From NCBI RefSeq assembly GCF_900188065.1, contig NZ_FZNQ01000013.1, positions 1-64,000 of the forward strand: 64,000 bases of DNA, written 5' to 3'. The position numbers and the translations under genes were made by a program. Shown here one piece after another: positions 965 through 20,983 of the stretch (position 1 is the first letter of the stretch; each line of letters begins with the position of its first letter). This stretch comes from Halorubrum vacuolatum (GTDB taxonomy: Archaea; Halobacteriota; Halobacteria; Halobacteriales; Haloferacaceae). Below the pieces are notes generated by a model that was not told the origin of the DNA, searched no databases, and saw only the letters and a program-made list of their open reading frames with translations.

Positions 965-1132
965 TTACAAGTCTTGTGGCATGACAGTCTTGCGGTCATT
1001 CGCTTCAGCACGACGGGAGGCTTCCTCAATAAGTTCGGCTACTTCTTCATCCAGAGCATCGTAGAAATCTGCTGCAACCGGGTGGTCTTCTAGTGCATCC
1101 TGCACCCCGCTATTGACGATCAGGTCTGTCAT
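965..1132 (-). CDS. Small histone-fold (DUF1931-like) protein
   Basis: This 55-residue protein starts MTDLIVNSGV and ends in the ANDRKTVMPQDL block typical of archaeal histone-fold DUF1931 proteins. The helix FYDALDEEVAELIEEA matches the central helix of that fold. Haloarchaeal members are single-domain, about 55 residues, and are thought to bind DNA or pair with other proteins; their function is not well known. I chose the ATG at 1132, not the longer frame to 1213. The family begins here and a TATA-like ATATTTAC lies about 28 nt upstream, which fits a leaderless transcript. The gene lies downstream of the 286-residue gene on the same strand, 77 bp away, so it has its own promoter. Confidence 0.8.
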   Translation of the reverse strand: MTDLIVNSGVQDALEDHPVAADFYDALDEEVAELIEEASRRAEANDRKTVMPQDL

Positions 1133-1209
1133 ACAACCCGGTATTAACGGGTCAGAGTAGTAAATATTGGCAAATTGGCTCGTGAGTACCGGGACAATTC
1201 CGAGACTGG

Positions 1210-2070: not shown

Positions 2071-2131
2071 TGGTTCTCTCTACAGAAACCCTAGTCGTAA
2101 TGCTTGTGTCTCAAAACCGTAATAGTAGCAT

Positions 2132-2491
2132 ATGACCGCGACGTATGCGCTCAGTGTTGCCATCGAATCACACGACTACAGGGGCGAGTTCTATCTTATG
2201 GGCGATAAATACGATACAGGTGAAGATGTCCTAAAATACGTTGCAACTGACCATATCTTAGCACTAAAGCAACGCCCACACGTTGCCGAGTACCTTTTAG
2301 AGACACTCCGAGATGGTGAGAACGTGAGCAAGGCAGAGTACGACCAAGCTACCCCGGATGTCTCCTGTGGGCTCCACTTCGATGTTAACCACCAACAGTT
2401 CGGATTCTGGGTTGGCGACCGTAGAGTCGAGATCGGGAGGCGACCAACAAAGAGCGAATTGCGCTCAATCGCTGACGACCTTTCGGTGTAG
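2132..2491 (+). CDS. Hypothetical protein, 119 aa, first gene of helicase-nuclease operon
   Basis: This small soluble protein has no domain I recognise. It ends about 60 bp before the XPB-like helicase start, on the same strand, so the two are probably cotranscribed. Alternating charged and aromatic stretches (residues about 80-100, with FGFWVGDRRVEIG) look like beta strands. It could be an accessory subunit or specificity factor for the helicase-nuclease pair, but no motif proves this. Confidence 0.6.
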   Translation: MTATYALSVAIESHDYRGEFYLMGDKYDTGEDVLKYVATDHILALKQRPHVAEYLLETLRDGENVSKAEYDQATPDVSCGLHFDVNHQQFGFWVGDRRVEIGRRPTKSELRSIADDLSV

Positions 2492-2551
2492 TCCCTTCCT
2501 CGTTCTCCACTCCAGCAACGACAAGTATGCGACCTGCATAAAGAGAGTTGA

Positions 2552-3961: not shown

Positions 3962-5297
3962 CCTCGCCCGCTCACGTACGTACGACGGAACTATCTCTCC
4001 GCTGTTCATCGACGCGGACGACCAGCAGTACCGAGAGACCGCAACAGAACTCATCCAGATCTTCGAGGAGCATCTCGGACAATCCAAGGGTGGGCTGGAG
4101 GAGACGATAGACCAGCTCACTATCGCAGACACGGACTACAAGATCGTACAAGGACTGGCGAAACTCCTGAAAGATGAGTGCGAATTCAAAACCGTTGCAC
4201 CAGTAGATCCGCAGGCGATCCGGCAGCAGCTTTTTGAGAAAGCGAACGATTCGTACCCGATTGCACGTCAGCCCACGCTCGGTGAGGACACACAAAAGTT
4301 GGAGGTGTACAGTGCTGTTGCTGACCAGTTCGGGATCTCACTCGAAGACTGCTACCGAGGCATGTATGCCGATTTAGAGGAGAACAAGCAACTTGTACGA
4401 TTTGGACACCGTACGTCCGATGAGTATGATGAGGCTGACGACGGGACGACCACGACACGGTTGACTGGAGATAGTGAGGAATCGTATGCTGAGGATACGA
4501 TAACGGTCGATTGGCTTCTCACACGCTACAATCTCGCTCTGGCACAAGCAGTACTGTACGATGCGACAGAGATGCGGATACGAGTCTGGGACTCGTTTGC
4601 GACGGTGTTCAGCTACGTGAAACTGTTTGGGCTGATGCACCGCATCTATCCAATCGACGCCAACGGCAACCGCGTTTCCAGTACTGACGTTGCTGACGGG
4701 TACGAGGCCATTCTGGATGGAGCAGCATCTCTTTTTTCGAAATCGAGGAAATACGGAATACGGATGTCAAACTTCCTTCCAGCTCTCCCGTTGTGCGACC
4801 GCTGGGAGATGGAAGCTGATATTCTTGATGACGATGGAGGAGCAACGAGTCAAACGCTCTCGTTTGAGCTTGACCACACGGACGAACTCTCCTCGCACTA
4901 CTCGGCTCAGAGCGATTTTGACTCCGATGTGGAACGCACACTTGCTCAAAAGTGGGAACGTGCCAACACTGACTGGCAACTCGTCCGCGAGGATGACGTA
5001 CTGGACCTAGGGGCAGAGGTAATGCTCCCGGACTTCGCTATCGAACACCCTGATGGACGCCGAGTCGTATTCGAGATCATCGGGTTCTGGACGCCAGAGT
5101 ATCTGAATGGAAAGCTGGCGAAGATACGGAATGCTGACCGGGACAACCTCATTGTCGCCGTCTCTGAACGGCTGGACTGTTCATCTGAAGATTTCGATGG
5201 ACTGGATGACCGTGTCTTGTGGTTCAAATCGGGTATCCACGTCTATGACGTGATTGAATTAGCGAAGGAGTATGCTGTCAAGTTCTCACCACGGTAA
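3948..5297 (+). CDS. Bax1-like (DUF790) nuclease, partner of XPB
   Basis: This 449-residue protein matches archaeal Bax1 (binds archaeal XPB, DUF790). It begins MLTADLARSR, as in that family. It ends in a PD-(D/E)xK-like nuclease core with LPDFAIEHPDGRR, then VVFEIIGFWTPEYL (about 360-385). Bax1 is a structure-specific endonuclease that cuts DNA opened by XPB. The start overlaps the helicase stop by 14 nt, which implies translational coupling. A GTG two codons earlier (3942) is the alternative start. A charged Asp/Thr linker (about 150-185) separates the N-terminal region from a helical middle. The role of the pair on this island is not shown by the sequence. Confidence 0.87.
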   Translation: MLTADLARSRTYDGTISPLFIDADDQQYRETATELIQIFEEHLGQSKGGLEETIDQLTIADTDYKIVQGLAKLLKDECEFKTVAPVDPQAIRQQLFEKANDSYPIARQPTLGEDTQKLEVYSAVADQFGISLEDCYRGMYADLEENKQLVRFGHRTSDEYDEADDGTTTTRLTGDSEESYAEDTITVDWLLTRYNLALAQAVLYDATEMRIRVWDSFATVFSYVKLFGLMHRIYPIDANGNRVSSTDVADGYEAILDGAASLFSKSRKYGIRMSNFLPALPLCDRWEMEADILDDDGGATSQTLSFELDHTDELSSHYSAQSDFDSDVERTLAQKWERANTDWQLVREDDVLDLGAEVMLPDFAIEHPDGRRVVFEIIGFWTPEYLNGKLAKIRNADRDNLIVAVSERLDCSSEDFDGLDDRVLWFKSGIHVYDVIELAKEYAVKFSPR

Positions 5298-5414
5298 TAG
5301 CGTTGATCTCGCCTATTACTTCCGCTGGACTCTCATTGGTTATACAACAGCGGGGTGCGTAGATCACCGTGGAACTTGGAATCCTGTCACACGCTCCAAG
5401 TTCCTCATCACATC

Positions 5415-5564
5415 ATGTCCAATGCAGTGTCGGAACTCGGTACGTGTCCATATTGTGGGTCGGCTGTTCCAGCCGGAGCGATACTTATCGAATACGAAGT
5501 GGAAAGTGAAACGCGTCTCTTTGCGGAGTGCTACGAATGTGAAGAGCCGGTCCAGCCACAGTAG
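5415..5564 (+). CDS. Small zinc-ribbon protein, 49 aa
   Basis: The protein has CPYCGSAVPAG near residue 11 and CYECEEPV near residue 40, two Cys pairs that should bind one zinc. Short zinc-ribbon proteins of this kind are common in haloarchaea and resemble the DUF7837 family; their function is unknown. I chose the ATG at 5415, since the upstream part of the frame looks noncoding. It follows the Bax1-like gene by 117 bp and may be cotranscribed with it. Confidence 0.7.
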   Translation: MSNAVSELGTCPYCGSAVPAGAILIEYEVESETRLFAECYECEEPVQPQ

Positions 5565-5634
5565 CTGTAACACGCACAAACTACTGTTCATGTCATACTG
5601 TCGAGTCACTATCACCTAGCTGCTACGGACACCA

Positions 5635-6126
5635 TCACGCTACGTATAGAACACGGCATAGATCGAATACAGTCCGCCGCAGGCGAACTGCATTGGTGGT
5701 TAGAAGAATCTCCGCATGTGGAACGTTTCTCTTATTGAGCAGCTCGTAGCCTCTCGGGACCACCGTGTGCTCTGTTATGAAGGCAACTACGAATCCAATA
5801 AAACCGCCGACAATGAGAGCCTGAAACGGTGGAACGTACGAAGGAACGCCGAACGCCAGCGCAAGCCCGAGCGTGATCGGAGCAGCTATCATAACGACTC
5901 CAAACGCGACTAATGCCAGACGTTCTCTGTGCTGTTCGGAGTAGTGGTCCCGCAGTAGCCAGACAACCGGGCCAGCAAGAATTGCTATAATGACTCCAAT
6001 GCCAGTAATTGAAATCCATGGAATGGCACCCCTCTCCATGAGTTGCAGAACGCTCAAAAGAGCAAATATCCCAACAAATACGAACACAAGTAACTGCCGC
6101 ATGAAGTGAGAAAGCGACTTCATCAC
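5635..6126 (-). CDS. Four-helix membrane protein of unknown function
   Basis: This 163-residue protein has four hydrophobic segments (about 10-28, 36-56, 68-92 and 98-118) and a charged C-terminal tail. Its ATG overlaps the stop of the upstream 330-residue gene as ATGA, so the two are translationally coupled. I recognise no family. Being the last gene of a three-gene minus-strand operon, it could anchor the partner proteins to the membrane. A small membrane protein coupled to soluble unknowns is also a common layout for toxin or effector genes, but nothing here proves that. Confidence 0.65.
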   Translation of the reverse strand: MMKSLSHFMRQLLVFVFVGIFALLSVLQLMERGAIPWISITGIGVIIAILAGPVVWLLRDHYSEQHRERLALVAFGVVMIAAPITLGLALAFGVPSYVPPFQALIVGGFIGFVVAFITEHTVVPRGYELLNKRNVPHAEILLTTNAVRLRRTVFDLCRVLYVA

Positions 6127-7115
6127 GGCCCTCCTCGGGGATGTGTATGAAATTGTGAGCCGGATTTGAATTCGGTTAGCTCCGCGATCCGATTTTCAAG
6201 CTCTTTGATTTCTCCACGGAGCTCTTCCGCCTCGCTCCCCTCTGTTGCAGCCAACTGGTCTTTCAGCCCCTGCAGCCGTGTTTCTTTGTGTTCCTCGTCA
6301 ACCTCGGCCTTCCGGACATACTCCGACTCTTCGATATCGTACACATCACTGTCAGATAGGGGTGTGACCTCAATTGCATCGTCCACTTTGCTCCGGTCGA
6401 CGCCCAGCACGCGCTCACGCTCAATCCCGGCTTCTTCCAGCGTCTCCAGTACCTCTTCATCGGGTTTGAGCGACCGGTTTCTCCGTGTCGTCCGTTGAAC
6501 GGACCCAAACGGTCCAGAGACGGGTTGATCGTGATGGAGTCGGTTGAGAAGCACATCGCTCACATCCTGCCGGAGGTCGTTGGCGTTCCGTTGGACATCC
6601 GAGAGTAGCGTGTAGAGATTCACCAGCACGTCCGTATCCATCTCTTCGAGAGTGGTTACCTCGTGTCGCTCCAGTACATCAACCAGCAAGAGTGCATCCG
6701 CATATACGTCCAAGTCTGGCTCAGTCCGTTCTCTTTCCTCACTCTCTGGCTCGTCCCCAGTGTCGAGAATCTGGGTAGTGGTCGGTCCGTCCTTTTCGAC
6801 GATCACGCCGGCATCCTCATCGATCTCAAAGCGTGGATGGAGACTCCACACCGCTGGGTAGGGGTCCGCATTGGGTGGGAGTCGGTCTAACTCAAATCCC
6901 GCCTCGGAGTCAGTGATCCGGCGATATAGTGTCTCGAATTGGTCCTGCTGGAGCGGCTGTGAGTCACCGCTGTGTATAAATTGGATCACGACGCGGTGCT
7001 CTTGGACGTCCGTGATCCAAAACCGGTCGTGGGACAGCGGCGTCCGGAGAGTAGCTCCCTCTGGCAGCTCATCCAACCGCTCGATGAGATTATGCCAGTT
7101 AACTCTGAACGACAT
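6123..7115 (-). CDS. Hypothetical protein with C-terminal coiled coil, 330 aa
   Basis: This acidic protein has an N-terminal mixed domain (1-110) and an acidic linker (about 115-135). A helical segment follows (about 135-190), then a conserved-looking block with GPFGSVQRTTRR (about 200). A coiled coil near the end (about 270-318) is rich in E, L and K. Similar unnamed proteins occur in haloarchaeal proviruses and islands; that is from memory and not checked. It is the middle gene of a three-gene minus-strand operon, 99 bp after the 184-residue gene and coupled by ATGA to the membrane protein. Confidence 0.65.
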   Translation of the reverse strand: MSFRVNWHNLIERLDELPEGATLRTPLSHDRFWITDVQEHRVVIQFIHSGDSQPLQQDQFETLYRRITDSEAGFELDRLPPNADPYPAVWSLHPRFEIDEDAGVIVEKDGPTTTQILDTGDEPESEERERTEPDLDVYADALLLVDVLERHEVTTLEEMDTDVLVNLYTLLSDVQRNANDLRQDVSDVLLNRLHHDQPVSGPFGSVQRTTRRNRSLKPDEEVLETLEEAGIERERVLGVDRSKVDDAIEVTPLSDSDVYDIEESEYVRKAEVDEEHKETRLQGLKDQLAATEGSEAEELRGEIKELENRIAELTEFKSGSQFHTHPRGGP

Positions 7116-7214
7116 ACCTGCATGGAGAGGGTCAGGTGCTAAATGTCTGCGGGCGATTCAGGCTGAATTCTCAGAAGATATTCGGTCAGCGCATCCAGAG
7201 TGCCGTCGAAAAAG

Positions 7215-7769
7215 CTACTCCGAGTCGTCCTCAGCGATGTCTGCTCGGCGGCGGGCAGCCTGTTCGAGAACGGCAAGCATCTCGGTGCGTTGCTCAGCAG
7301 GGACGTTACGCCACTGCTCGCGATAGCTCTCGATAAACTGGTCGAACTCCTCAGCAAACGCCGTTTCAGGATCGTCGGACGCCTGAATTCGAGCAACCGC
7401 GTCCTGCCAGAGCTCTCGTGTTGCCCCGCGCTCAAATACGTAATCGATCAAGAGGGTTGCATCGAACGAGAACTCGCGGGTGAGCTCTGTCACCTCCCAC
7501 TCGCCACTGGTGAGGTGGTAGCGATAGCGGGTCCGAATGTGCCAGCGCGCAGGTGTTGGCCCTCCAACCATTGAGGCAGCTAATAGTGGAGAGGGGTGCC
7601 GTTCAAGACGGAAACTGAAGTCCTCTTTATTGAACTGCCACCATGCGCCACGCTCCCGAATTTTCCTGACTGTCAATCCATCTGGCAGCAAGATCTCGCT
7701 CGTGGTCAACAGTCGGAGTGCATCTTCCCGATCCTCAATGCGCACCTGCGATGGATCGGACTTGTTCAT
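7215..7769 (-). CDS. Hypothetical protein, 184 aa
   Basis: This soluble protein has a beta-rich first half (including GAWWQFNKEDFSFRLERHP near 41-59) and a helical, charged second half (about 115-175). I do not recognise the family. It is the probable first gene of the operon that runs to 5635. The 240 bp upstream, before the lipoprotein gene on the other strand, hold no other gene and must contain both promoters. Confidence 0.6.
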   Translation of the reverse strand: MNKSDPSQVRIEDREDALRLLTTSEILLPDGLTVRKIRERGAWWQFNKEDFSFRLERHPSPLLAASMVGGPTPARWHIRTRYRYHLTSGEWEVTELTREFSFDATLLIDYVFERGATRELWQDAVARIQASDDPETAFAEEFDQFIESYREQWRNVPAEQRTEMLAVLEQAARRRADIAEDDSE

Positions 7770-8009
7770 ATCTTGAGATAGTCACACACTCACAAAGCTG
7801 TTATCCAGACTCTCAGTCTCCCCTGATCGGAATGATTAGAGAGTCTCTGACAGAAAGCAGAGAGTTCATTCGGCAGATGCTGAATACAGAGGTTCAATGC
7901 AGCAAAAGCTTCGTCTTAATCTACGAGAGCGGTGATCGATCAGTACGGAAAACCCGTAACCCACCTATGGAATAAAATAGTTAGACCTGCTAACATTATC
8001 CACTTAAGC

Positions 8010-9383
8010 ATGAACAGGGAGAAAGTAAATAAAAGACAATTTTTGAAAGGCCTTGGAGGACTAGGAGCAACAGCAGGCCTAGCAGGATGTGGGGACACAG
8101 GAAACGGATCACCTTCAGATGGCAGTTCTGATACCAGTGATACCGGAGATGATATTGAAACTGATTCATCTCCAGAAGATGATGGTAAAGATCGAGATGA
8201 TGATGATGGTGAAGTGGAAGATGAGGATCAATTTGAGGTAGTTGATGCTGAAGTGTTGGGCGCGTATGATTCTGAATCCGATTCCTTAAATTTGAATATT
8301 GATTATGAAGGTGATTTAGATGAAGGTTATACTCCTGATGTCAGGTTGAATGGTGAGGCCTTAACAAATCTAGATGCCTTGGAAGCTGATGGCTCTTTCA
8401 AAGTTGAAGACATTGACGGAATGCTGGAAGGCGGAGAAGGCAATCTAATAATAGTTGATGGCAACCGTGTCAACTTCAGAGTATATGACTCCTGGAACGA
8501 CATAGAACAAGCAGAATACGAATTTTGGAGATATCGAGCAGATAGAGCTCCTAGAGGAGCAGAACAAGCTGCCAGAAGAATATTTGATCCCGACGCTGAC
8601 TTCTCAGATAAAAATACTTTCATGGAAGAACATCTAAATATTATAAATGAAATAGTGAAAGACCCTGAATACGGTGACGGATTCTCAGGTGCAATCGATT
8701 GGGTTTATCCAATATTAAACGTTATTCACATAGAAAATGATAATAAAATCAGGTTGAGCCCAGGAACTATATCACATGGCTTTACAAAAATCAAGTCAGG
8801 TCATGAAACAGATGATCAAGGCTATGGTTTTCCATTAATTACCGCTGACTCTAACTACCCTGCAGTGGGCCTAACCGAAGATAATCCACTAGATGAAAGA
8901 GGACAATCAAACGTCTACGGAGATCTAGGAAAAAATGTAGTAGGCGAAGATTTTGAAGACTTAGATACTAGTGGAAGACGAGCAGGCAGTATGATGTGGA
9001 ATAATATTATAAGAGTTCCTAGTGCGGGTAATGATAACGTTGTAAGCTTTGATCCAAGTGTGATGACTGAGTATCTTGATCTTTATTGGGATGGCGATGG
9101 ACATATATTGTTTGGTAAGGTAAGACATGCGCTTGGTACTTTAACAAAGGCCTTAGCAAACGGTTTTGTAGAAGAAGATTTCAGCGACCATTACAATGGT
9201 GATGATGAAGAAGAACTAGCTAACTTGATGATTACCTCAGGTGTTGAAGACCTTCCTAGTCCTGAAAACTTTGATAACCATGGAGAATATGCAGAGGAAC
9301 TGCTTCATGGAGGACACGTTGAGGCCTATGCTGAGGCCGCCTTCTGGAAAAAGCTTTTGGATTCTGAACACTATTATGGATGA
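8010..9383 (+). CDS. AT-rich Tat-exported lipoprotein of unknown function
   Basis: The protein is 457 residues from the ATG at 8010. I chose this start because it gives a Tat signal, NKRQFLKGLGGLG, followed by the lipobox LAGC with Cys27. The mature N terminus is a long Asp/Ser/Gly spacer (about 30-80), as is usual for haloarchaeal lipoproteins on the outer face of the membrane. The rest shows no domain I know. Codon use is striking: many AGA, TTA, ATA and AAT codons in a genome that avoids them. This suggests recent acquisition from a low-GC source. The next reading frame downstream, on the other strand, is a fragment with the same composition. Confidence 0.75.
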   Translation: MNREKVNKRQFLKGLGGLGATAGLAGCGDTGNGSPSDGSSDTSDTGDDIETDSSPEDDGKDRDDDDGEVEDEDQFEVVDAEVLGAYDSESDSLNLNIDYEGDLDEGYTPDVRLNGEALTNLDALEADGSFKVEDIDGMLEGGEGNLIIVDGNRVNFRVYDSWNDIEQAEYEFWRYRADRAPRGAEQAARRIFDPDADFSDKNTFMEEHLNIINEIVKDPEYGDGFSGAIDWVYPILNVIHIENDNKIRLSPGTISHGFTKIKSGHETDDQGYGFPLITADSNYPAVGLTEDNPLDERGQSNVYGDLGKNVVGEDFEDLDTSGRRAGSMMWNNIIRVPSAGNDNVVSFDPSVMTEYLDLYWDGDGHILFGKVRHALGTLTKALANGFVEEDFSDHYNGDDEEELANLMITSGVEDLPSPENFDNHGEYAEELLHGGHVEAYAEAAFWKKLLDSEHYYG

Positions 9384-9396
9384 ATTCTTATTTACT

Positions 9397-9621
9397 TCAC
9401 TGGAATGAGTCTTCTGACAAGTCGAAGTTTTCGTTCATTATTTCTTTTCTTGAGTTGTCCTTGTGTATTTCGAATACTTGATCGTTCTCTCCACCTCTAA
9501 CTAAGTCGCTTCTATCTTGTACTTCGTAAGCCCACTGACATGCATAACCTGAGTAACCACCGCTTGTATCAACAGTATCAGAAACACTCCATAACTGATC
9601 GAAAAATGTCTGTACCTTACA
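9397..9621 (-). pseudogene. C-terminal fragment of an AT-rich gene
   Basis: On the minus strand a 74-codon frame with no start is open from just after a TAG (9622-9624) to a TGA at 9397-9399. It has the same codon use as the lipoprotein gene (AGA, TTA, AGC). The product includes FFDQLWSVSDTVDT and ends NENFDLSEDSFQ. Lack of a start, matching composition and clean reading suggest the tail of a gene cut on its upstream side, convergent with the lipoprotein gene. The missing part should have lain where repeat copy 2 now stands. The family is unknown. Confidence 0.5.
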
Positions 9622-9722
9622 CTATGTTGAAAGACGGTATGCAAAGCAAACCTCTGCATGTTGCACCGGTCTTCTGATGGATTTCATATAAGTCGCCACT
9701 CCTCACGGTACGTGTACACCCT

Positions 9723-9740
9723 GTAGTGACCGATCACTAC
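9723..9740. repeat. Short palindrome upstream of repeat copy 2
   Basis: GTAGTGA, loop CCGA, TCACTAC form a perfect 7-bp stem, about 40 bp before the left end of repeat copy 2. It is comparable in size to the hairpin before copy 1 (468-484) but different in sequence. Confidence 0.45.
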
Positions 9741-9779
9741 TCTTTGGGATCTGCTTCAGTCCGTGCTGCATTCGCGCGC

Positions 9780-10070
9780 TGTATCTTGCACGCCCGCGGT
9801 TTTATGTGTGAATTATGTCACTCCAAGCGATTAGCGACTCGCGCCCGAAATCGGTCACGAGTACAGACCGACGCGGGCTGTAGATATGATCCGTATTCAG
9901 TAGCCGAACACGATCTCCACACATAAGCTGCTGCACGACCCGAGATCTTTCCGTCTTCCACCGATCTTCGGGCCAGTACGATCTACTAGTAGTTCTCGAA
10001 TATGGAACGCCGTGCCTCATGTTGTCCCCCTCCGACTATGCGGTCACAACACGGCAAAACTACCAGTAGT
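9780..10070. repeat. Island long direct repeat, copy 2
   Basis: This is the full-length copy, colinear with copy 1 from TGTATCTTGCACGCC to ACTACCAGTAGT with scattered substitutions and single-base indels. It lies between the AT-rich lipoprotein module and the downstream end of the STAND-like NTPase gene. A 12-bp sequence at its left end (CTGTATCTTGCA, 9779-9790) recurs in perfect inverted orientation at 10190-10201. The 423 bp between could therefore be a small element with terminal inverted repeats. No coding frame is conserved. Confidence 0.8.
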
Positions 10071-10189
10071 CTCTTAGTGGTCGGCTCAGGGCGTGAATAC
10101 AGCACTCATCGTTGGCTCCTTGTAAGCAATTAAGAGGCGAGAGCGCTCAACGGAACTGACGGTTTGTCGAGTAGCCGAGAAGAATATGC

Positions 10190-10201
10190 TGCAAGATACA
10201 G
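10190..10201. repeat. Inverted partner of the repeat left end
   Basis: TGCAAGATACAG is the exact reverse complement of CTGTATCTTGCA at 9779-9790. It lies in the spacer between copy 2 and the NTPase gene. Flanking bases match only loosely and I see no clear target-site duplication. I found no matching inverted partner near copies 1 or 3. Confidence 0.4.
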
Positions 10202-10259
10202 AGCGTGAGTTCAGCACGCACTTCGATTAGAGGTGTCTCAGATGTGCACGGTCGAACGC

Positions 10260-13200
10260 TTACTCAGTCTGTACCGAAACTGCCTCGCGCCAAGCTGTCG
10301 CAGTCGGGATATCGAAGCCGCATTTCGACGATTTGAGTTCGTCAGCGATCGTCGCGACGACCTCTGTATGGAGCTCCGGATCTATCTCGGTCAACTGGTC
10401 GATAGACTCTACGACCAAGTCGAAGGGTGGCTCAGGCTCGATGTCAACGGGCGTTCGTTCGAGAACTGCGGCAGTCACGGCCGCTAGTGCGTCAACACGG
10501 GAATCCCCGTCGAGCAACGAGTGGCCGTCTCCAACTTCGTCGATAGTTGCTTCCACTAACGTGACTGCCTGCTCTGGGTCGGCGTGGTCGAGCCCTCCAG
10601 CCCGGCGCACACAATCGACGTATGTATTGTCGGGGTCGGTGGTCCGGTCAGCGAGGTTGGCGAGATGGGCAAACAGAGTATCGAGTTCTTCGTGGCCGTC
10701 GGCGGCGGCGCTCATTGCAAGACCATGAGCGATCGTCCGTTCGACGAAGACATCCCGCGCATTCGTAGATTTTAGTGAGGGACCTAATAGGCCAACCGGC
10801 GGTTGATTACCGTCAAGCAGTTCAGCGGCGCGAGCCGTAACCGCAACGAACTCATCCGCGTTGCTCACGGCAAGTTTCCCGACGAGAGTAAAGAAGTCCT
10901 GAACATCGTCGTCGACGAGCGGCACACCGCTCTCAACGAATCTGTGATGGGCTCTTCCAATCCCGACGGCGACAACTTCGATCCGATCGGCTTGCGACTC
11001 GGAGTGTGGATCCGCTTTTTCGATCTTGTGGATGAGATCAGCAAGGATATCGACAACGTTATCCAGCGGATTGGCATGGGAAATCAAAATATCGTACAGG
11101 ATGAGGAATCCATCGCGGTTGAGAGTCCTACTCGCCCGATCGAGGAGTGTCTGTGTCCATGGGTCCAGCAAAAGCGATCCAGAGTCGGGGATTACTTGCA
11201 GGATCGACAAACCGACATACGCTGCTCGGAAACTATCTGAGCTCATTCCGTGTCGGTCGTCGGTGGCTGCGGTGGCGGCGCGGTCGTCGAGTTCGTCGAG
11301 CCACGGTTCGACCTCCCCGGGAGCGTACTGATCGGCCAACCTCTTGATAGCCGTCGAGTAGACGTTTGCGAGGAACTGGCCGGGCGGTTCGCCGTGTCGG
11401 TCGTCAGCGAGGACAGCTGCGGTGGCGGCGCGGTCGTCGAGTTCGTCGAGCCACGGTTCGACCTCCCCGGGAGCGTGCTTATCGGCCAAGTTTGAGATGG
11501 CCATCGAGTAGACGTTTGCGAGGAACTGGCCGGCCGGAAGGCCGTGTCGGTCGTCAGCGAGGACAGCTGCGGTGGCGGCGCGGTCGTCGAGTTCGTCGAG
11601 CCACGGTTCGACCTCCCCGGGAGCGTACTGATCGGTCAACCTCTTGATAGCCATCGAGTAGACGTTTGCGAGGAACTGGCCGGCCGGAAGGCCGTGTCGG
11701 TCGTCAGCGAGGACAGCTGCGGTGGCGGCGCGGTCGTCGAGTTCGTCGAGCCACGGTTCGACCTCCCCGGGAGCGTACTGATCGGTCAAGTTTGAGATGG
11801 CCATCGAGTAGACGTTTTCGAGGAACTGGCCGGCCGGAAGGCCGTGTCGGTCGTCAGCGAGGACAGCTGCGGTGGCGGCGCGGTCGTCGAGTTCGTCGAG
11901 CCACGGTTCGACCTCCCCGGGAGCGTGCTTATCGGTCAAGTTTGAGATGGCCATCGAGTAGACGTTTTCGAGGAACTGGCCGACATCCCATCCGAGTTCT
12001 TGCTCTGTTGCCACCTCGACGTACTCCTGAACGACTTCGTCTGCCTCTGTTAGACGGGTTGGGTTGCTGGATACTCCCAGTAACCCACCGAACCAGTTCT
12101 GTATGATAACACTCTGCTCGACGGGACTTGCCCCAGATATCTGCAGCAACTGAGTTCGATGGTCGCGCATCACCGAGGGGTCGATTGGGACTCTCGTGAG
12201 GGGCAGTGCGAGTCGTGAGAATGGTTCCGGGTCTGTATCAGCCAACGCCTGCTCGAAGGTCGCCTCACTTGCGTCGACCACCTTTGATATGAGCTCGTCG
12301 TCACTGCGCTCCTGTCCAACGCTGTGGGCCATCAGTAAATTCAGTGCTAGCCCCATGTAGGACTCGGCCGCTACGTCGTGCTCTGAATCAGCAAGTGTAG
12401 CCAGAAACCCTTGGAGTTTATTTTCCGTAATCGCCCTCCGACGGAATACGACCTCACCGTAGATATCCGGCGAAATACTCCACGTCTTATCTTCGTCCAG
12501 AGGTCTGAAAGAATCCCCGAGGAGAACATCCATTTCTTCGCCTTCGAGGTACCCCGACAATTGCTCCAGCACGTCGCGTAAGGTACCCAAATCTTCGCCA
12601 GTCAACGTCGATAGTTGGCCAAGCGACAGCGATCGGGTAAACGCAAGTGTCTGGAACACCCGTGGCCCCAGCGACTCTCCGTGAACCATCGCCGATGGAG
12701 GATTAACTACGTTATCGATGTCCTCCCAGATCAAGTCGTCGACTGTCTCGAACGCCGATAGTGGTTCGTCCTCGACCGCAACGTACCGGGCCGCGAGTTT
12801 GGCTATCTCCGCGTTCCCACGGGCAAACTCGACAACTTCCGGCACTGCCCCTTCACGCCGTTCAGGAGACAGCTCATATACATCCTTCAGAACCCAATCG
12901 ACGAGGTCGCCCAAGGTTCCGTCTTCACTATCATCGTCCGAATGTTCCGGGAGTTTCGAAAACGGGATCCGTTCACGGTTCTTCCATGCCTCACTTCCGA
13001 CCCGGAACTCTCGACTCTCGTACTGCTGTTTGAGCGCGGTGGAGAACTCTTCACGTACCTCGACGATCACTGCGTGACAAGGGCCCTCCTGAACCAATTC
13101 GAGGATCGTGGCTAAATCGTCGTTATCGAAATGTGCGGTCCCGACTCGATAGCTCGTCACTAACACTGATGGCTCGTCGGTTCGGTCTACTGCCCACTCG

Positions 13201-14774
13201 ATATACTCTGGAGAGTCCCAATCGTCCGGCAAGCGCACGTCATAGCCCCGGTCGGCGAGTTCTCGTGCCGCATTCAGCGCTCCCGCCGTCTTTCCTGTCC
13301 CGTATGCTCCTTCGAGTGTCACCAAGCCACCGTCGGCGACCGCTTTCACAATTTGATCGACCTCGTCCCCGTAGTACGGTATATTGGTCATCTCTGGAAG
13401 CGTCAGATCCTCATCTCCGGCCGATCGATCGCCGCCAGTGAGTAGTGTCCGTTCGTTATCTCGGACTGTCTCTTCGAACGCCGGCAGTCCTCGTGTTGCT
13501 CCTGCCAGCCTGTTGGACATTATCGATTCGAACTCCGAGGCTCGCCGGGTGTGTTCAGCGAGGTGCTCGACTGCGGCATCGATGTCGTCGAACTCCGTCT
13601 CGAACTCTTCGGTCCACGCATCGACGGCTGCGTCAAACTCTGTACGGAGTTCCGGAACTTCCTCGCAGGTCGTTCTGATACGTCGCAGGTTCCCCTTCCT
13701 GCCGAGCCACGTTAGGTTGTCTACCGTCCCCGGCGGGAGGTCGAACGTGTCCTCAACTTGCTCCCGAGCCGGCGGTGTGAGGGTGTTGTCGACGACCTGA
13801 TCTAACAGTGCATCTACCGGAAGCGCATCAGTACCCTCTCCGCTTTCCTCCCAGTCACGAAGTGCCAGCCAGAGTCCGAGTCCGAGAAGTGGTCCCAACG
13901 GAGTAGCCCAGATCGTGGGCGATCCGAGACTTCCTCTAAGCGATGACCGTGCTTCGTCGATTATGGTTTCCGTGTTCGACAGGACCTCGCCTAGATTGGT
14001 CTCCCGAAGTGTATCGAGATCGGCGGTCGGAAGGTGAGACCTCACAAACCCGACCACTTCTGAAAGACCGGCACTTGCACCGAAGTCGGTGAGTGCGTCC
14101 CGGACAACACTGCCGGTCAGCACACCGTCGGACTCGGCTTCAGATGTTCCTAGTCTGTCGGAGACGAATCCAACCATCGGCGGCAGGAGCGTGGGCTCGT
14201 ACGGGCCGAGGGCCTCGGAGAGCGTATGGTGTTCGAACTCGTACCCTTCGTATCGGAGTAAGTCGAGTGACCCTTCGACCACTTCCGCAACGAGATCGTC
14301 ACCAATCACCACACATCGCTGAACCGCTCGGGCGACGTCTTCGTCGCTCTCGGGATCGTATTGAAGTTTGAACACCTGATCGACCGGTGTGAAATCTCCA
14401 GCTTCGATCGGTATCTCGCTCTCGTCTTGCCGGACCATCCAATCGAGTGTTCGCGGACGGGTCGCCAAACAAACACCCGCGTCCCTGTCGAACAGTTGCG
14501 TCAGTCGCTCGCGAACAGATACGTCTCCGAACTGCGTAGCCACGATCGACTCGTAGAGATGATCGACGATCAGGAGTGCGTCGTCGGCGTCCTCGATTGC
14601 CTCGTCGCTCAAGTCCTCGACGTACTTGACGCCGCTTTCCTTTCCGAGACTCTTCAATCGTTCTGTGGTTCCGACGTAGGGGGCACCGAGGATGAGAGTT
14701 GCCTCACCGTGTAGTTGCTCTACCTGAAGCCGATCAGGTCGGCGTGATGTGACGGTGAGATCTCCTTCCGTCAT
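10260..14774 (-). CDS. Giant STAND-like NTPase with near-identical tandem repeats
   Basis: This 1504-residue protein starts MTEGDLTVTS. The N-terminal region (about 1-280) has a P-loop-like LILGAPYVGTT but no recognised enzyme domain. A hydrophobic stretch follows at about 283-306 (TPLGPLLGLGLWLAL), a possible membrane segment. The NTPase module begins near 465 with Walker A GAYGTGKT (489-496), a Walker B-like HAVIVEVREE, and a GNAEIAKL motif like the late STAND signature. The C-terminal half is helical, with five 48-50-residue repeats (about 932-1179) nearly identical even in DNA, then degenerate repeats. This order (effector, STAND NTPase, repeat sensor) is that of Avs and other NLR-like immune receptors. 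Function and ligand are inferred. Confidence 0.82.
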   Translation of the reverse strand: MTEGDLTVTSRRPDRLQVEQLHGEATLILGAPYVGTTERLKSLGKESGVKYVEDLSDEAIEDADDALLIVDHLYESIVATQFGDVSVRERLTQLFDRDAGVCLATRPRTLDWMVRQDESEIPIEAGDFTPVDQVFKLQYDPESDEDVARAVQRCVVIGDDLVAEVVEGSLDLLRYEGYEFEHHTLSEALGPYEPTLLPPMVGFVSDRLGTSEAESDGVLTGSVVRDALTDFGASAGLSEVVGFVRSHLPTADLDTLRETNLGEVLSNTETIIDEARSSLRGSLGSPTIWATPLGPLLGLGLWLALRDWEESGEGTDALPVDALLDQVVDNTLTPPAREQVEDTFDLPPGTVDNLTWLGRKGNLRRIRTTCEEVPELRTEFDAAVDAWTEEFETEFDDIDAAVEHLAEHTRRASEFESIMSNRLAGATRGLPAFEETVRDNERTLLTGGDRSAGDEDLTLPEMTNIPYYGDEVDQIVKAVADGGLVTLEGAYGTGKTAGALNAARELADRGYDVRLPDDWDSPEYIEWAVDRTDEPSVLVTSYRVGTAHFDNDDLATILELVQEGPCHAVIVEVREEFSTALKQQYESREFRVGSEAWKNRERIPFSKLPEHSDDDSEDGTLGDLVDWVLKDVYELSPERREGAVPEVVEFARGNAEIAKLAARYVAVEDEPLSAFETVDDLIWEDIDNVVNPPSAMVHGESLGPRVFQTLAFTRSLSLGQLSTLTGEDLGTLRDVLEQLSGYLEGEEMDVLLGDSFRPLDEDKTWSISPDIYGEVVFRRRAITENKLQGFLATLADSEHDVAAESYMGLALNLLMAHSVGQERSDDELISKVVDASEATFEQALADTDPEPFSRLALPLTRVPIDPSVMRDHRTQLLQISGASPVEQSVIIQNWFGGLLGVSSNPTRLTEADEVVQEYVEVATEQELGWDVGQFLENVYSMAISNLTDKHAPGEVEPWLDELDDRAATAAVLADDRHGLPAGQFLENVYSMAISNLTDQYAPGEVEPWLDELDDRAATAAVLADDRHGLPAGQFLANVYSMAIKRLTDQYAPGEVEPWLDELDDRAATAAVLADDRHGLPAGQFLANVYSMAISNLADKHAPGEVEPWLDELDDRAATAAVLADDRHGEPPGQFLANVYSTAIKRLADQYAPGEVEPWLDELDDRAATAATDDRHGMSSDSFRAAYVGLSILQVIPDSGSLLLDPWTQTLLDRASRTLNRDGFLILYDILISHANPLDNVVDILADLIHKIEKADPHSESQADRIEVVAVGIGRAHHRFVESGVPLVDDDVQDFFTLVGKLAVSNADEFVAVTARAAELLDGNQPPVGLLGPSLKSTNARDVFVERTIAHGLAMSAAADGHEELDTLFAHLANLADRTTDPDNTYVDCVRRAGGLDHADPEQAVTLVEATIDEVGDGHSLLDGDSRVDALAAVTAAVLERTPVDIEPEPPFDLVVESIDQLTEIDPELHTEVVATIADELKSSKCGFDIPTATAWREAVSVQTE
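11238..11981 (-). repeat. Five 150-bp coding tandem repeats
   Basis: Units on the minus strand are 11981-11832, 11831-11682, 11681-11532, 11531-11382 and 11381-11238. Each encodes about 50 residues starting GQFL and containing APGEVEPWLDELDDRAAT. The last unit lacks two residues. Differences cluster at a few codons: residue 5 (E or A), residues 13-14 (SN or KR), residue 16 (T or A), residues 18-19 (KH or QY). The remaining bases are almost all identical between units. The variable codons occur in shuffled combinations, which suggests recombination or gene conversion. Confidence 0.92.
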
Positions 14775-14937
14775 TTCGTCGTTTCTTGCCAGAATGTTAA
14801 CTCAAGGCAATTTAAGTCTATCTTACAGTCGTCCCGTCTCCCGGGCGGAACTACATCAGGAATATGGGTGACCGACTCAGGGAAGATATTTGTCCTAATT
14901 AGTGTGTTGAGGTATCGCCTGTGGTGATTATGCGCGC
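14775..14937. promoter_or_regulatory. Upstream region of the NTPase gene
   Basis: This 163-bp spacer lies between the NTPase start (minus strand) and repeat copy 3. It must hold the NTPase promoter. I see AT-rich stretches near 14800-14825 but no single convincing TATA box. No gene is visible. Confidence 0.35.
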
Positions 14938-15168
14938 TGTATCTTGCACGCCCGCATGTTCATATCTGAATTATGTCACTCCAAGCGATTAGCGACTCGC
15001 ACCCGAAATCGGTCACGAGTACAGACCGACGAATGTTGTAGGTATGATCCGTATTCAGTAGCCGAACACGATCTCCACCGATAGCTGCTGCACGACCCGA
15101 AATCTCTCCGTCTTCCACCGATCTTCGGGTCAGTATGATCTACTAGTAGTTATTGAATATGGAACGCC
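14938..15168. repeat. Island long direct repeat, copy 3, at right border
   Basis: This copy matches copies 1 and 2 from TGTATCTTGCACGCC through the CTACTAGTAG palindrome to GGAACGCC. It then stops matching, about 55 bp short of the end shared by copies 1 and 2, and runs straight into the reading frame of a pilus ATPase. The last shared bases, GAACGCC (15162-15168), could be junction microhomology with an Asn-Ala codon pair of the ATPase gene. This marks the right border of the island. Confidence 0.82.
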
Positions 15169-15171
15169 CAC

Positions 15172-16005
15172 ATGCCGTTCATTCCCTTCGATGACCGTCC
15201 GATCTCCATCGATGAGGGCTCACGGGAGGTCCAACTGCCACATGAGACCGGCATCTCGCTCACCACGCGGGAACACGAGAACCCGTATAAAGCCGTCTCG
15301 ATGGCGGACCTCATGACCGAGACGAACTACCTCAACCCCGACGTCGAGGTGATAGCCGAGATCAATACCGCCGAAAGCTTCGAGACGTTCGGCGAGCTGT
15401 TGAACACCGGTCACGGGGTGATCGGAACGACACACGCCGAGGACGTTGAGACGCTCGTCAACCGCGTGATCGAACAGGGATTGGCCGCATATCTGCTCCG
15501 GGAGATCGACGTGGTCGTCTTTCCACACCACGTCGAGGGGAAGCGATACGTCACGCAGGTCGTCGAACTGCTCTCCGGGTCGGAGTACGACTCGCTCGCG
15601 CCGGAGACCAAACGCGGACGGGATGGACGTCCGAAACACGGCGGGGCAGGAACCATCGAAAAGGGTGACGCGACCATCCACTACAACACCATCGCCTGGC
15701 GTGAGCCGGATGGAACCTTCCGGTTCGTCGGCAATCCCGAGAGGACGGCACACGACGGGTCGGTGAAAACCCCGGATCACACGGCGCGCAGCCGACACCA
15801 CGTCTTTACCCGACTCGCTGAACGCACCGATCGGGATCTCGAGGCGGTGAAAGAGGAATACGTGCGAAAGCATCGATACGTGCGGTATCTCGTCCGTGAC
15901 GGCGTAACCGACTTCGAGGAACTCTTCGAGTTCCTCTCGGACCTCCGAACAGACGAGGCCGCGACGGTGGAACGTGCCGCACGGACGATGCGAGGTCGGC
16001 CGTGA
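15172..16005 (+). CDS. 5'-truncated type IV pilus/secretion ATPase (PilB/VirB11-like)
   Basis: This open frame of 277 codons is the C-terminal part of an archaeal pilus or secretion ATPase. It keeps the acidic strand RPISIDEGSREV, a Walker B-like VIAEINTAESF, and the His-box TGHGVIGTTHAED. The family is normally over 500 residues, with Walker A just upstream of this start. The N-terminal domain and Walker A are gone, replaced by repeat copy 3, so the product cannot bind ATP normally. The ATG at 15172 may be an internal Met of the former gene. It overlaps the PilC-like gene by one base, so it headed that operon. It is probably a pseudogene; the intact second ATPase (29236-31221) might serve instead. 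Confidence 0.88.
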   Translation: MPFIPFDDRPISIDEGSREVQLPHETGISLTTREHENPYKAVSMADLMTETNYLNPDVEVIAEINTAESFETFGELLNTGHGVIGTTHAEDVETLVNRVIEQGLAAYLLREIDVVVFPHHVEGKRYVTQVVELLSGSEYDSLAPETKRGRDGRPKHGGAGTIEKGDATIHYNTIAWREPDGTFRFVGNPERTAHDGSVKTPDHTARSRHHVFTRLAERTDRDLEAVKEEYVRKHRYVRYLVRDGVTDFEELFEFLSDLRTDEAATVERAARTMRGRP

Positions 16006-17963
16006 TGCGGATCGGACCGATGAAGCGGCGTGCCGACCGTGGCCTCTCGCTTCTCGACCGTGGGTTGTACGCGCTGTTCGCGAGACACGCCGACGAACGT
16101 CGGCACGCGCTCGACCGGAAACGATACCCCGGGACCGGCCTCCGTACCGGCTTCGACAGCTACCTCGCCAGGACGTATGCGGTATCGTGGGTCGTCTGTC
16201 TCCTCTCGATAGTCCTGACGCTCGTGTTCGTCTCGGCCGTCGCACCGACGTTCATGCCGCTTCTCGATCGGCTCGCCGAATCCGCTGCTTTCGGCCGTGT
16301 GGGGACGATCGCTGACGTACCCATGCTGTGGATCGCTGCGGGAACCGCCGGGGTGGTCGGTGTGGCGGCCAAACGCCTCACCGTACGGCTAAGCGGGCGC
16401 TATCTTCGCTGGCTCGCGGCCGCCCGACGTGCGGACATCGAGCGGACGCTTCCCGGGGCGGTCCGGTATCTCAATGCGCTCGCGGCGGGAACCGACGACG
16501 CGCGGACGATGGTCGCGAAGGCCGCCGCGAGCGACGCCTACGGCGAAACGGGCGTCACGTTTCGAAAGGTAGTCAACACGACACGGCTCACGGGAAGCCT
16601 CGACGAGGGGCTTCGTCGAGGTGCGAGGGAAACCCCCTCACGCGACCTGTTGGCGCCGTTTCTGCTGAAGTTCCGCGAGCACGCGAGCCAAGGCGAGGAC
16701 GCGTTGGCCGACTACCTCCGGATGGAGAGCCGGATGCTTCGCTATCGACAGGACCGGGCGCGAAAGCGGGCCGAAGGCTACCTCGAACTCCTCGCGGAGC
16801 TGTTCATCGTCGTGCTCGTCCTGCCCGCGTTGCTCGTGATCGTCGTGACCGTCATGGGTGTGCTCGCCCCCGGCCTCTCCCGGCTGATCGAGACCCCGTT
16901 CGGGACGATGGAGACGCGGACGATGATCATCTACGGGGCCGCGGGATTCGTTCTCGCGGTCGGGCTCGCCGGTGCGATAACCGTCGAGACGATCCGACCG
17001 TCCGACCAGCGCGTCACGTACCGGCGGCCAAGCGCACCGGTCGCGACCGTCCGATCCGCGGCCAGAAACCCGAAGAGTGCGACGGTAATCGTGCTGATCC
17101 CGGCGCTGCTCGTCGGTGTCGTGGCATCGACCATCGTCCATCCGGTACAGGCGGCTCTCGCCGCCTACGTCGCATTCGCCGTTCCCGTGGGCGGCGTCGC
17201 CGTAAGACGCGCCCGCCTCGACGATGCAAAGGATCGGGAGTTGAAGGACTTTATCCACGCGGTTTCGGGACACGTCTCGCTCGGTCGACCGTTTGCTGAC
17301 GCCGTCGAGACGGTCGCGACGGAGGTCGATCTCGGCGCGTTGAACGAGGACGTTGCCGACCTCGCGTTCAACCTCTCGTTGACGAACACGGGGACACCAC
17401 GGCCCGATGAGGCGATCGTGTTGGCGACGGCGGGATCCGTCTTTGGGACGGACGCCGACCGGAGGGTCGACCGTCGAACGGCCGCGCTCGACCGGTTCGT
17501 CGAGCGGGTCGGAACGCCGCTTGCACGACAGACTGTGGGGTTGGTCACGGGCGCGTTAAACGCAGGCAGCGACGCGGACACGGTCTTCGAGACGCTGCAA
17601 ACGGAGGTCGGCCAACTGTACCACGAAAAACAGGCGCTCCGGTCGGCGATGCTCGTCTATGCGGTCGTCGGATGGACGACGGCGCTGCTCATCGTCGGGA
17701 TCGTCGTCGCGGTCAACACGCAGGTGATCGACGGGTTCGCACAGCTTTCGGAGCTCTCCGGGACGTCGGGGTTCGCCCTCGATCCGAACGCCGTGGAGCC
17801 CGAACGGGAGCGGTTCCGGTTTTATATCGTCACGCAGGCGACGATGCTGGCGTCGGGCTGGTTTGCGGGCGTCGCCTCACGCGGCCCATACGAGGCGTTG
17901 CTGCACTCGGGACTGTTAGTGACGTGTTGTTATGCGATCTTCGCCGGGGGTGGCATGATATGA
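16005..17963 (+). CDS. pilC: PilC-like (GspF/TadB family) pilus platform protein
   Basis: This 652-residue polytopic membrane protein has type II secretion F domains in two copies, each followed by hydrophobic pairs (about 65-90 and 105-125; 265-320; 370-405; 555-580; 620-650). In archaeal type IV pili this protein is the inner-membrane platform that works with the PilB ATPase to assemble pilins. The ATG overlaps the stop of the truncated ATPase (TGATG); a GTG one codon earlier is possible. The downstream pilin-like gene overlaps by ATGA, so translation is coupled. The coding frame looks intact, unlike its ATPase. Confidence 0.88.
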   Translation: MRIGPMKRRADRGLSLLDRGLYALFARHADERRHALDRKRYPGTGLRTGFDSYLARTYAVSWVVCLLSIVLTLVFVSAVAPTFMPLLDRLAESAAFGRVGTIADVPMLWIAAGTAGVVGVAAKRLTVRLSGRYLRWLAAARRADIERTLPGAVRYLNALAAGTDDARTMVAKAAASDAYGETGVTFRKVVNTTRLTGSLDEGLRRGARETPSRDLLAPFLLKFREHASQGEDALADYLRMESRMLRYRQDRARKRAEGYLELLAELFIVVLVLPALLVIVVTVMGVLAPGLSRLIETPFGTMETRTMIIYGAAGFVLAVGLAGAITVETIRPSDQRVTYRRPSAPVATVRSAARNPKSATVIVLIPALLVGVVASTIVHPVQAALAAYVAFAVPVGGVAVRRARLDDAKDRELKDFIHAVSGHVSLGRPFADAVETVATEVDLGALNEDVADLAFNLSLTNTGTPRPDEAIVLATAGSVFGTDADRRVDRRTAALDRFVERVGTPLARQTVGLVTGALNAGSDADTVFETLQTEVGQLYHEKQALRSAMLVYAVVGWTTALLIVGIVVAVNTQVIDGFAQLSELSGTSGFALDPNAVEPERERFRFYIVTQATMLASGWFAGVASRGPYEALLHSGLLVTCCYAIFAGGGMI

Positions 17964-19223: not shown

Positions 19224-19951
19224 AGCGGTGCACGCGTGGGGAACCCACATGTCGTGGAGGATTGGGGGCCGCAGGCAACGACTCTCGGGAAACCGTGTCG
19301 GGAACGGGGCGCGCACAGGCAAACCTTCCCGTCGTCGCGGTCGCGCTCGTCGTGCTCACGGCCGTGACCGGCATGACGGTCGCGATGGCGGAGGGCGCAC
19401 AGCTCGCCGCGGAGCGGGACGTCGAAGAGCGTGCGGCGGCCGTGTCGATCGCGGACGCCTTCGTCGACGGGGAAGCCGAACACACCCGGCGGGACAACGT
19501 CCTCGATGCCGAGGCGCTCGCAGCGCTGACAGCGAACGAGTGGCCCCCCGTGGCAGCGGTGGACGACGCTGCCGTGCGGGTCCGCGCGGGCGAGGAGGTC
19601 CTCCTCGAACGCGGTGACCCCGAAGGCGGGACGACGGTGCGTCGGCTCGCGCTCATCGCGACCGAGGAAACCGATGACGGGAGCATCTCTGCCGACGGAA
19701 CGGAGGAGTTCGACCTACCGGAGGGAACCACCGCCGTCGAGGTCGATCCCGAGGGATCGGTCGAAACCGTCCGGATTGACGGCCGCGTGATCACACACGA
19801 GGGACGCGGAGCAGATGCGACGACGCGTGTCGACGTTCGGCCGGATCGTGACGTCGCCGTCTCCGCGAGCGGTGGGCATGGACGGGTCCACGTCACCGCG
19901 GTCCGTGAACGGACCGAACGGGTCGTCGTCGAGGTGACCGTCGATGCCTGA
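19220..19951 (+). CDS. Pilus-operon pilin-like protein, 243 aa
   Basis: A leader ending in GRAQANLPVV precedes a single hydrophobic helix (about 33-55), followed by a long acidic extracellular domain. The start overlaps the preceding stop (ATGA), and the end overlaps the next gene by 8 nt. It fits the DUF7263-like member of the same conserved haloarchaeal operon. The function, minor pilin or surface subunit, is inferred from context. Confidence 0.7.
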   Translation: MKRCTRGEPTCRGGLGAAGNDSRETVSGTGRAQANLPVVAVALVVLTAVTGMTVAMAEGAQLAAERDVEERAAAVSIADAFVDGEAEHTRRDNVLDAEALAALTANEWPPVAAVDDAAVRVRAGEEVLLERGDPEGGTTVRRLALIATEETDDGSISADGTEEFDLPEGTTAVEVDPEGSVETVRIDGRVITHEGRGADATTRVDVRPDRDVAVSASGGHGRVHVTAVRERTERVVVEVTVDA

Positions 19952-20363
19952 GCGGGCCGACGACGAGCGTGGCCAGTTGTCCCTCTCGCTCGTTGAGGCG
20001 GCGGTCGGACTCGTGTTCGTGTTGACCGTCGCGGCGACGTTCGGGCTGGCCCTCCCGGAGCCGGGGACGACGGAGGCACAGCTCGACACGTACGCGACGG
20101 ACGTGGCGACGATCGTGGCACATGAGCGACCGGCCGACGGGGACGGACCGCGGATGGCCGATATCGACGATCGGGAGACGTTCGAGCGCGAACGGGAAAC
20201 GCTGGAGCGGCGGATCGACGAGCTGCTGCCCGATAACCTGTTGTATCGGATGGAGACTCCATGGGGAACGCTCGGCGTCGAGCCGCCCGCAAGCGTGCGG
20301 ACGGGTGGAGCGACAGTCACGATTCCGGCCGGGACGGTCACCGTCGAGGTGTGGTACGGATGA
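19944..20363 (+). CDS. Pilus-operon pilin-like protein, 139 aa
   Basis: It carries RGQLSLSLVEAAVGLVFVL (about 9-27), a pilin-like segment with the Glu near the start of the hydrophobic helix that is typical of type IV pilin assembly. A short acidic domain follows. It is coupled by overlap to both neighbours. It is probably the minor pilin of this locus most like classical type IV pilins (DUF7262-like by position). Confidence 0.7.
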   Translation: MPERADDERGQLSLSLVEAAVGLVFVLTVAATFGLALPEPGTTEAQLDTYATDVATIVAHERPADGDGPRMADIDDRETFERERETLERRIDELLPDNLLYRMETPWGTLGVEPPASVRTGGATVTIPAGTVTVEVWYG

Positions 20364-20983
20364 ATCGGCGGCGGCTGAATCCGGTTGCCCGACGATTGGC
20401 CGGGCGTGGGGACGACCGTGGACAACTGATCCTCGTCGCGGCGGCCGCACTCGCCATCGCGCTGTTCCCGCTGGTGCTCGCGTATCTCCAACTCGGGTAC
20501 GCGGGCGATGTCGACGCGGAGCCGACCGGGACGGATCCCGAATCGGAACTGACGCAGGCGCTTGAGCGGGCGGTTCACGACGCGGCCGCCGAGGTCGATC
20601 ATCGGACGACATCGGAGTCGGGTGCGGGAGAGTCGACCGATGACGGAGGGGTTGGAGACGGCCATATCGACAGCCCAGAGGGTGCTGCTGCGGCGTTTCG
20701 GACGTCGGCCAGTGACGACCTCAAGCGGATCGAAACCGCCTACGTCGCCGACGGGTCGGCGGCGCGGATCGAATACGCACCGACGGGCGCCGAGACCTGG
20801 ATCGATGACGGCCATTGGCGAGATGGCATCGCGGGCGACTTTTCCGAGCCGACGGCTCACGGTGGCGTGGTGATCCAAGAGCGGGGCGGTGAACCCACAG
20901 TCATCGCCGTCGCCGTCGACGTCCACCTACGAACCCCGGAGGCGACGATCGATCGGCGCGTCATCGTTCACGTACCGCGGTGA
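20360..20983 (+). CDS. Pilus-operon pilin-like protein, 207 aa
   Basis: DRGQLILVAAAALAIALFPLV (residues about 19-39) forms the hydrophobic N-terminal helix. The rest is exported and acidic, with a Gly/Glu/Ser-rich loop near 85-110. This is the last gene of the first pilus operon, coupled by ATGA to the previous one. The following 76 bp separate it from the convergent tctA gene and show no strong terminator. It resembles the DUF7261-type protein. Confidence 0.7.
   Translation: MNRRRLNPVARRLAGRGDDRGQLILVAAAALAIALFPLVLAYLQLGYAGDVDAEPTGTDPESELTQALERAVHDAAAEVDHRTTSESGAGESTDDGGVGDGHIDSPEGAAAAFRTSASDDLKRIETAYVADGSAARIEYAPTGAETWIDDGHWRDGIAGDFSEPTAHGGVVIQERGGEPTVIAVAVDVHLRTPEATIDRRVIVHVPR

Follow-up and report, generated by a model that had tools for sequence, protein, structure and literature searches.

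Position 15168 of the analysed window, a stretch of 64,000 nucleotides that begins at the start of contig C43 of Halorubrum vacuolatum, is most probably (at a probability of about 0.92) the right attachment junction of an array of segments that integrated site-specifically and in tandem and so split the pilus assembly ATPase gene pilB. This reading draws on the two gene halves, the empty site of a relative, the junctions, the tandem copies and their recurrence in other haloarchaea, each of which could be read directly in the genome sequences.

In the proposed mechanism, a tyrosine recombinase would join the att site of an element, in which two CTACTAGTAG-type arms lie around the core GGAACGCC, to an attB in pilB made up of the Walker A-proximal codons ATG AAC GCC CAC ATG. 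Further segments carrying this att would then enter beside the first one, leaving arm-core-arm copies between segments (copies 1 and 2 in the window), so that the core adjoins the gene solely at the outermost left and right junctions of the array. The ATPase would be split into an N part with Walker A, on contig C54, and a C part with Walker B and the His box, in the window, and the pilus motor would presumably be inactive while the array is in place. Since both flanks have the core in common, the gene would be made whole again by a precise excision, and the disruption could be reversible.

A pilus ATPase gene in two parts

Judged by homology, the frame at 15172-16005 is the C-terminal third of a haloarchaeal ATPase of the VirB11/PilB superfamily. 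It is 81% identical to residues 506-782 of the homologue in L024, and its Pfam T2SSE match (3e-07) spans residues 4-111 only, at profile positions 166-267 of 370. Intact homologues from Halorubrum, Halogranum and others hold about 500-630 in-frame residues 5' of the fragment's Met, Walker A included, ending in GPTGxGKTTLMNAH right before it. This bears out the initial annotation, which had placed the cut just after Walker A of a pilus ATPase, and it excludes a native start at this Met in a protein lacking a P-loop. In the unsplit gene, Walker A, Walker B and the His box all belong to one T2SSE domain, which in H. vacuolatum is divided over two contigs. The rest of the pilus operon is open in frame, as had been claimed, with a PilC-like gene (T2SSF) and five short ORFs, each encoding a hydrophobic segment at its N-terminus:

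15172..16005, forward strand: C-terminal 277 aa of a PilB-type ATPase; Walker B, His box and C-terminal extension kept, Walker A absent
16005..17963, forward strand: PilC/TadC-like membrane protein, intact frame; T2SSF 5.9e-15; 82% identity to L024
17960..18706, forward strand: predicted pilin-like ORF 1, hydrophobic N-terminal segment
18699..19223, forward strand: predicted pilin-like ORF 2; homologue in L024 and L025
19220..19951, forward strand: predicted pilin-like ORF 3
19944..20363, forward strand: predicted pilin-like ORF 4
20360..20983, forward strand: predicted pilin-like ORF 5

The missing N-terminal half, for which the initial annotation had proposed a search, was found in the same genome (C54:14197-15684, minus strand); it aligns to residues 9-505 of the closest relative with 88% identity, and its end, ...GKTTLMNAH, falls at the same codons as the break. 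The relative with an empty site that had also been sought is L025, in which the flanking gene, the intact ATPase, PilC, the pilin-like genes and TctA lie on one contig. The genes flanking the ATPase there are those on C54 plus those in the window, that is, the two sides of the insertion. No intact copy of the split ATPase gene was found in the H. vacuolatum genome, which contains three paralogous PilB-family ATPases of about 32% identity. The left junction on C54 reads CTGATGAACGCCCAT up to the break and ATCTAGATACTACTAGTAG beyond it, and the right junction in the window reads CTACTAGTAGTTATTGAATATGGAACGCCCACATGCC, with CTACTAGTAGTTATTGAATATGGAACGCC up to the break and CACATGCC beyond it; AACGCC(CA) is identical at both junctions and in the intact pilB of L024 and L025. 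The array itself is spread over contigs C54, C52 and C43, unjoined in the draft assembly, a point against the proposed reading. The island part beside the N half on C54 (448-9865 of L093) contains an inverted repeat pair (448-747 and 9568-9865) and a duplicated gene stretch (3479-4897 and 8346-9468).

Between H. vacuolatum and L024, dN/dS was 0.107 for the N half, 0.104 for the C half and 0.182 for PilC, versus 0.141, 0.199 and 0.224 for the same three parts of two intact genes, and residue changes specific to the H. vacuolatum lineage numbered 22 vs 16, 16 vs 9 and 33 vs 27. By these measures neither ATPase half shows a sign of decay, indicating that the insertion could be recent or that the gene could be restored at times. 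Of the two possibilities in the initial annotation, a recent event or another ATPase as substitute, either may apply, the three paralogues being candidates for the second.

Attachment sites, tandem segments and a candidate recombinase

The array in the window is made up of the following features:

482..781, forward strand: repeat copy 1, predicted full att site (P'-O-P), core near 716-721
722..10011, no strand assigned: segment B, 9.29 kb, with an XPB-like helicase, a Bax1/DUF790 nuclease and others; no integrase
9774..10071, forward strand: repeat copy 2, predicted full att site (P'-O-P) at the junction of two tandem segments, core near 10006-10011
10012..15168, no strand assigned: segment A, 5.16 kb, one gene, no integrase
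10260-14774, minus strand: gene of segment A, 1504 aa; matches nSTAND3 weakly, short of the Pfam cut-off
14929..15168, forward strand: repeat copy 3, by alignment the element right arm (P') and core fused to pilB (P'-O-B')
15140..15149, no strand assigned: palindromic arm CTACTAGTAG, present at both array ends and in att copies of other genera
15162..15168, forward strand: att core GAACGCC, junction of element arm and pilB, codons ..N-A-H-M..

The 240 bp repeat parts lie at 482-721, 9771-10010 and 14929-15168, and copy 3 ends at 15168 as first described, with 90% identity to copy 1 over 482-721. In the alignment, copies 1 and 2 run about 60 bp past the core GGAACGCC, beyond the equivalent of 15168, whereas copy 3 enters the ATPase gene at the core; copy 3 is therefore, on this alignment, a half att site joined to the gene rather than a shorter repeat. 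The stretch common to repeat and gene is GAACGCC (15162-15168) plus CA, and the same core was present in G003, G092, G239, G372, G361, G046 and G059. The initial annotation was thus right that GAACGCC is common to both sides, but its suggestion of shared microhomology gives way to an att core reused by different elements and genera. Its island border likewise stands, with the island recast as an array of tandem elements that meet one another at the repeat copies.

The aligned att sites read CTACTAGTAGTT-N-CTGAATRTGGAACGCC-about 45 nt-AACTACTAGTAG, a core region of about 90 bp with two CTACTAGTAG-type arms. The motif AGTAGTTNCTGAATRTGGAACGCC, at no more than 2 mismatches, gave 31 matches, which came from 18 of 392 haloarchaeal genomes and represent 12 of 95 genera, and 0 in the control; with up to 7 mismatches allowed, five shuffled windows gave 0 matches. 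Copies adjoining on one contig stretch were always direct and 1.3-10.5 kb apart, and direct arm-core-arm arrays were found in the window (698, 9988 and 15145), G372, G128, G370 and G369. Copies 1 and 2 have another arm than the left junction of H. vacuolatum, which suggests that the leftmost element is of another type and likewise counts against the proposed reading. An attC-like folded site was considered and rejected: RNAalifold on 14 sites gave 4 pairs with no compensatory change, and the arms pair in single sequences but are palindromes. A weak arm-core pattern in viral contigs was dropped for its chance-like matches (at least 120). A Salinirubellus plasmid carries an att match of 29 bases inside a hypothetical protein gene.

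Segments A and B lie in tandem at one predicted attachment site, with at least one further segment to their left. In Halorubrum alkaliphilum (G009:C46), DNA 94% identical to segment B adjoins the same att site with another left flank beyond the att arm, which argues that segments move singly. The helicase-nuclease pair of segment B (2552-5297) is mobile cargo, and segments elsewhere carry LtrA, FAD oxidoreductase, and PAS and Bat-type regulators. A defence-island reading was rejected, given this varied cargo and a PADLOC search for known defence genes that yielded only cross-matches of the XPB-like helicase. Within the 1504 aa gene of segment A, four to five tandem 150 bp units (11266-12015) encode near-identical 50-residue repeats.

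No tyrosine recombinase gene was found in the window, and the genome holds 18 PF00589 matches. The candidate among them is a tyrosine recombinase of 382 aa (C52:24416-25561, PF00589), whose contig also bears two att copies; the operon runs in the order RHH-like, 161 aa, 382 aa integrase, the two small upstream proteins being 161 and 161 aa. Relatives of this integrase sit within the pilB insertions of G003 and G092, and the catalytic residues R215, H337, R340 and Y378 (R..H-x-x-R..Y) are near-invariant in 19 integrases. The C52 integrase is the likely enzyme and might act in trans on segments that lack an integrase. In several att-bearing genomes no close relative of it was found, so another recombinase may act. 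Two integrases searched against NCBIfam had no match above cut-off, the best being archaeal XerA, well below it; the G003 integrase as query gave no phage match, two weak plasmid matches and none in IMG/VR or viral contigs. In other haloarchaea, numerous members of this integrase family (L132, L134-L150) lie away from pilB.

Recurrence in the pilus ATPase gene of other haloarchaea

The survey covered about 390 haloarchaeal genomes (392 in the pattern scans). Both ATPase halves, parted at the same codon, were found in five genomes: H. vacuolatum, G003 (a 7.6 kb element between the halves on a single contig), G092 from another family (8.1 kb; its integrase and the one in G003 share 91% identity), G239 (4.4 kb) and G372, again from another family. 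In G372, gene-core-P lies at C71:6863, P'-core-P at C71:9666, C71:15501 and C50:22525, and P'-core-gene at C50:11993, so that all predicted junction types are present, the series that successive integration at one att site predicts. Junction relics remain in three more genomes (G046, Halosimplex aquaticum (G059/L064) and G361). The exact right-junction pattern occurred in 4 of 392 genomes, every time in pilB, and the reversed-pattern control gave 0; the same junction appears in several genera, in several cases within single contigs and complete chromosomes.

Two elements at the same pilB site in different haloarchaeal families (L094 and L133) have integrases 91% and RHH-like proteins 98% identical, pointing to recent transfer between families. 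Some apparent breaks in the gene were set aside. G361 also has an intact gene, and its junction fragment is a relic (around C1:1151169, L278), in which about 135 ATPase residues share one reading frame with an aldo/keto reductase-like protein. The break in G002 is a contig end only. In a Haloplanus MAG (L066), the change at the same codon is a one-base frameshift: an otherwise open ATPase near 7990 has one extra base beside the core (GATCGAACGCC vs GATGAACGCC in relatives), possibly an excision scar or an assembly error.

Furthermore, the gene is split at two other motifs. In G022 and G025 the break falls at the Walker B codons; the shared core is about 15 bp long (AATTACCTCAACCCC in G022), and the elements have outer arms TTAACAGCGCAAAC and GTTTGCGTTGTTAA and a different integrase of 335 aa. 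In the H. alkaliphilum genome (G009, G061) and in G019 the His-box codons are interrupted, with the core ACACSGGC, by elements carrying an integrase of the Walker A family. Among 35 genomes of the genus Halorubrum the gene is present in 31, six of them with a split copy. Among the paralogue matches listed, long open frames of at least 450 aa are kept unsplit, and paralogues hold AAC-GC at Walker A (AACGCC in two of the three in H. vacuolatum), indicating that the choice of target is gene-specific. Across these genomes the pilus ATPase gene is an apparent recurrent docking site for unrelated haloarchaeal elements.

Explanations for the choice of target and relation to known systems

At roughly even odds, the choice of site is neutral: conserved codons, alike in all hosts, would serve as attB, and the loss of the pilus would be collateral and mostly tolerated through paralogues. 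All three sites lie in Walker A, Walker B and His-box codons, three paralogous ATPases are available in the genome, and in Haloferax volcanii PilB3-C3 can rescue the loss of PilB1-C1 (PMC6491452). Nevertheless, the paralogues that stay intact despite their similar Walker A DNA count against a purely neutral choice.

Somewhat short of even odds, the elements might instead disarm the pilus for their own benefit, blocking DNA exchange that would cure them or closing a virus receptor, with convergence on the motif sites. Three att sites in one gene, used with at least two dissimilar integrase families, and the split in six of 31 Halorubrum copies would fit such selection, as would the bacterial precedent, where comFA is hit at convergent sites and comYC, comK and comM also carry insertions (PMC4774983); conserved motif codons could, however, also simply be good attB DNA. 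Targeted disarming is compatible with site-specific tandem integration, the latter covering the structure and the former an advantage.

It is a more tentative idea that excision of the array in a fraction of the population restores the ATPase and makes the pilus phase-variable. The comK prophages are a precedent for phase-variable excision. The identical core on both flanks, the undecayed halves with dN/dS of about 0.10 as in intact pairs, and the Haloplanus extra base, if an excision scar, would agree with such a switch; yet that base could be an assembly error, and the array, with its several tens of kb and its internal att copies, would lose single segments more easily than excise whole. 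Comparably speculative is an integron-like cassette system of haloarchaea, in which a trans-acting tyrosine recombinase would collect integrase-less segments bounded by the two-arm att of about 90 bp, with the Walker A codons as main dock and with capture and pilus function mutually exclusive and reversible. A one-off illegitimate recombination, IS activity or an assembly artefact at a seven-base microhomology is very improbable, for although just seven to nine bases are in common and the assembly is a draft, the junction recurs across genera, arms and cores are conserved and the control pattern gave 0/392.

Tandem site-specific integration is known from SGI1 arrays and from SCC and the Enterococcus cassette chromosome. 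The array described here resembles them in its direct segments at one chromosomal attachment site with att copies between, but it splits a gene in an internal conserved motif, has a two-arm att of about 90 bp, and most of its segments lack an integrase. It shares with integrons the integrase-less direct segments between conserved recombination sites, whereas no IntI or attI is known here, the sites have no conserved single-strand fold, and the segments are 1.3-10.5 kb long and often multi-gene. By operon layout, the C52 genes can be likened to the three-gene operon of SNJ2, a tyrosine recombinase with two small proteins; IntSNJ2 is encoded with Orf2 and Orf3 of 111 and 140 aa and targets the 3' end of a tRNA gene (PMC8371274), while the C52 small proteins differ in size and order and the target is a protein gene. 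Archaeal att sites in protein genes such as HMG-CoA reductase are known, and the pilus ATPase is absent from that review (PMC8371274). Going by architecture, the long ATPase of the window, with its own PilC and pilins, might correspond to the PilB4 locus of Haloferax volcanii (HVO_1160), a Halobacteria-specific ATPase with extra N- and C-terminal domains and its own PilC and pilins (PMC4858521). Like the prophages in comYC, comFA, comK and comM (PMC4774983), these mobile elements converge on a pilus or competence machine, here through an archaeal pilus assembly ATPase, three catalytic-motif sites and cassette-like tandem arrays. Within the open-access literature searched, both the target and the conserved cassette-like att site appear new.

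Taken together, an apparent pseudogene becomes the map of a recurrent recombination system. Several types of element, in different families of haloarchaea, would use the catalytic-motif codons of one pilus ATPase for attachment, an archaeal counterpart to the disruption of competence genes by prophages in bacteria. With the att motif, many haloarchaeal islands that lack annotation could be located and their borders defined, and the idea that mobile DNA gains from shutting down archaeal pili can be put to a direct test.
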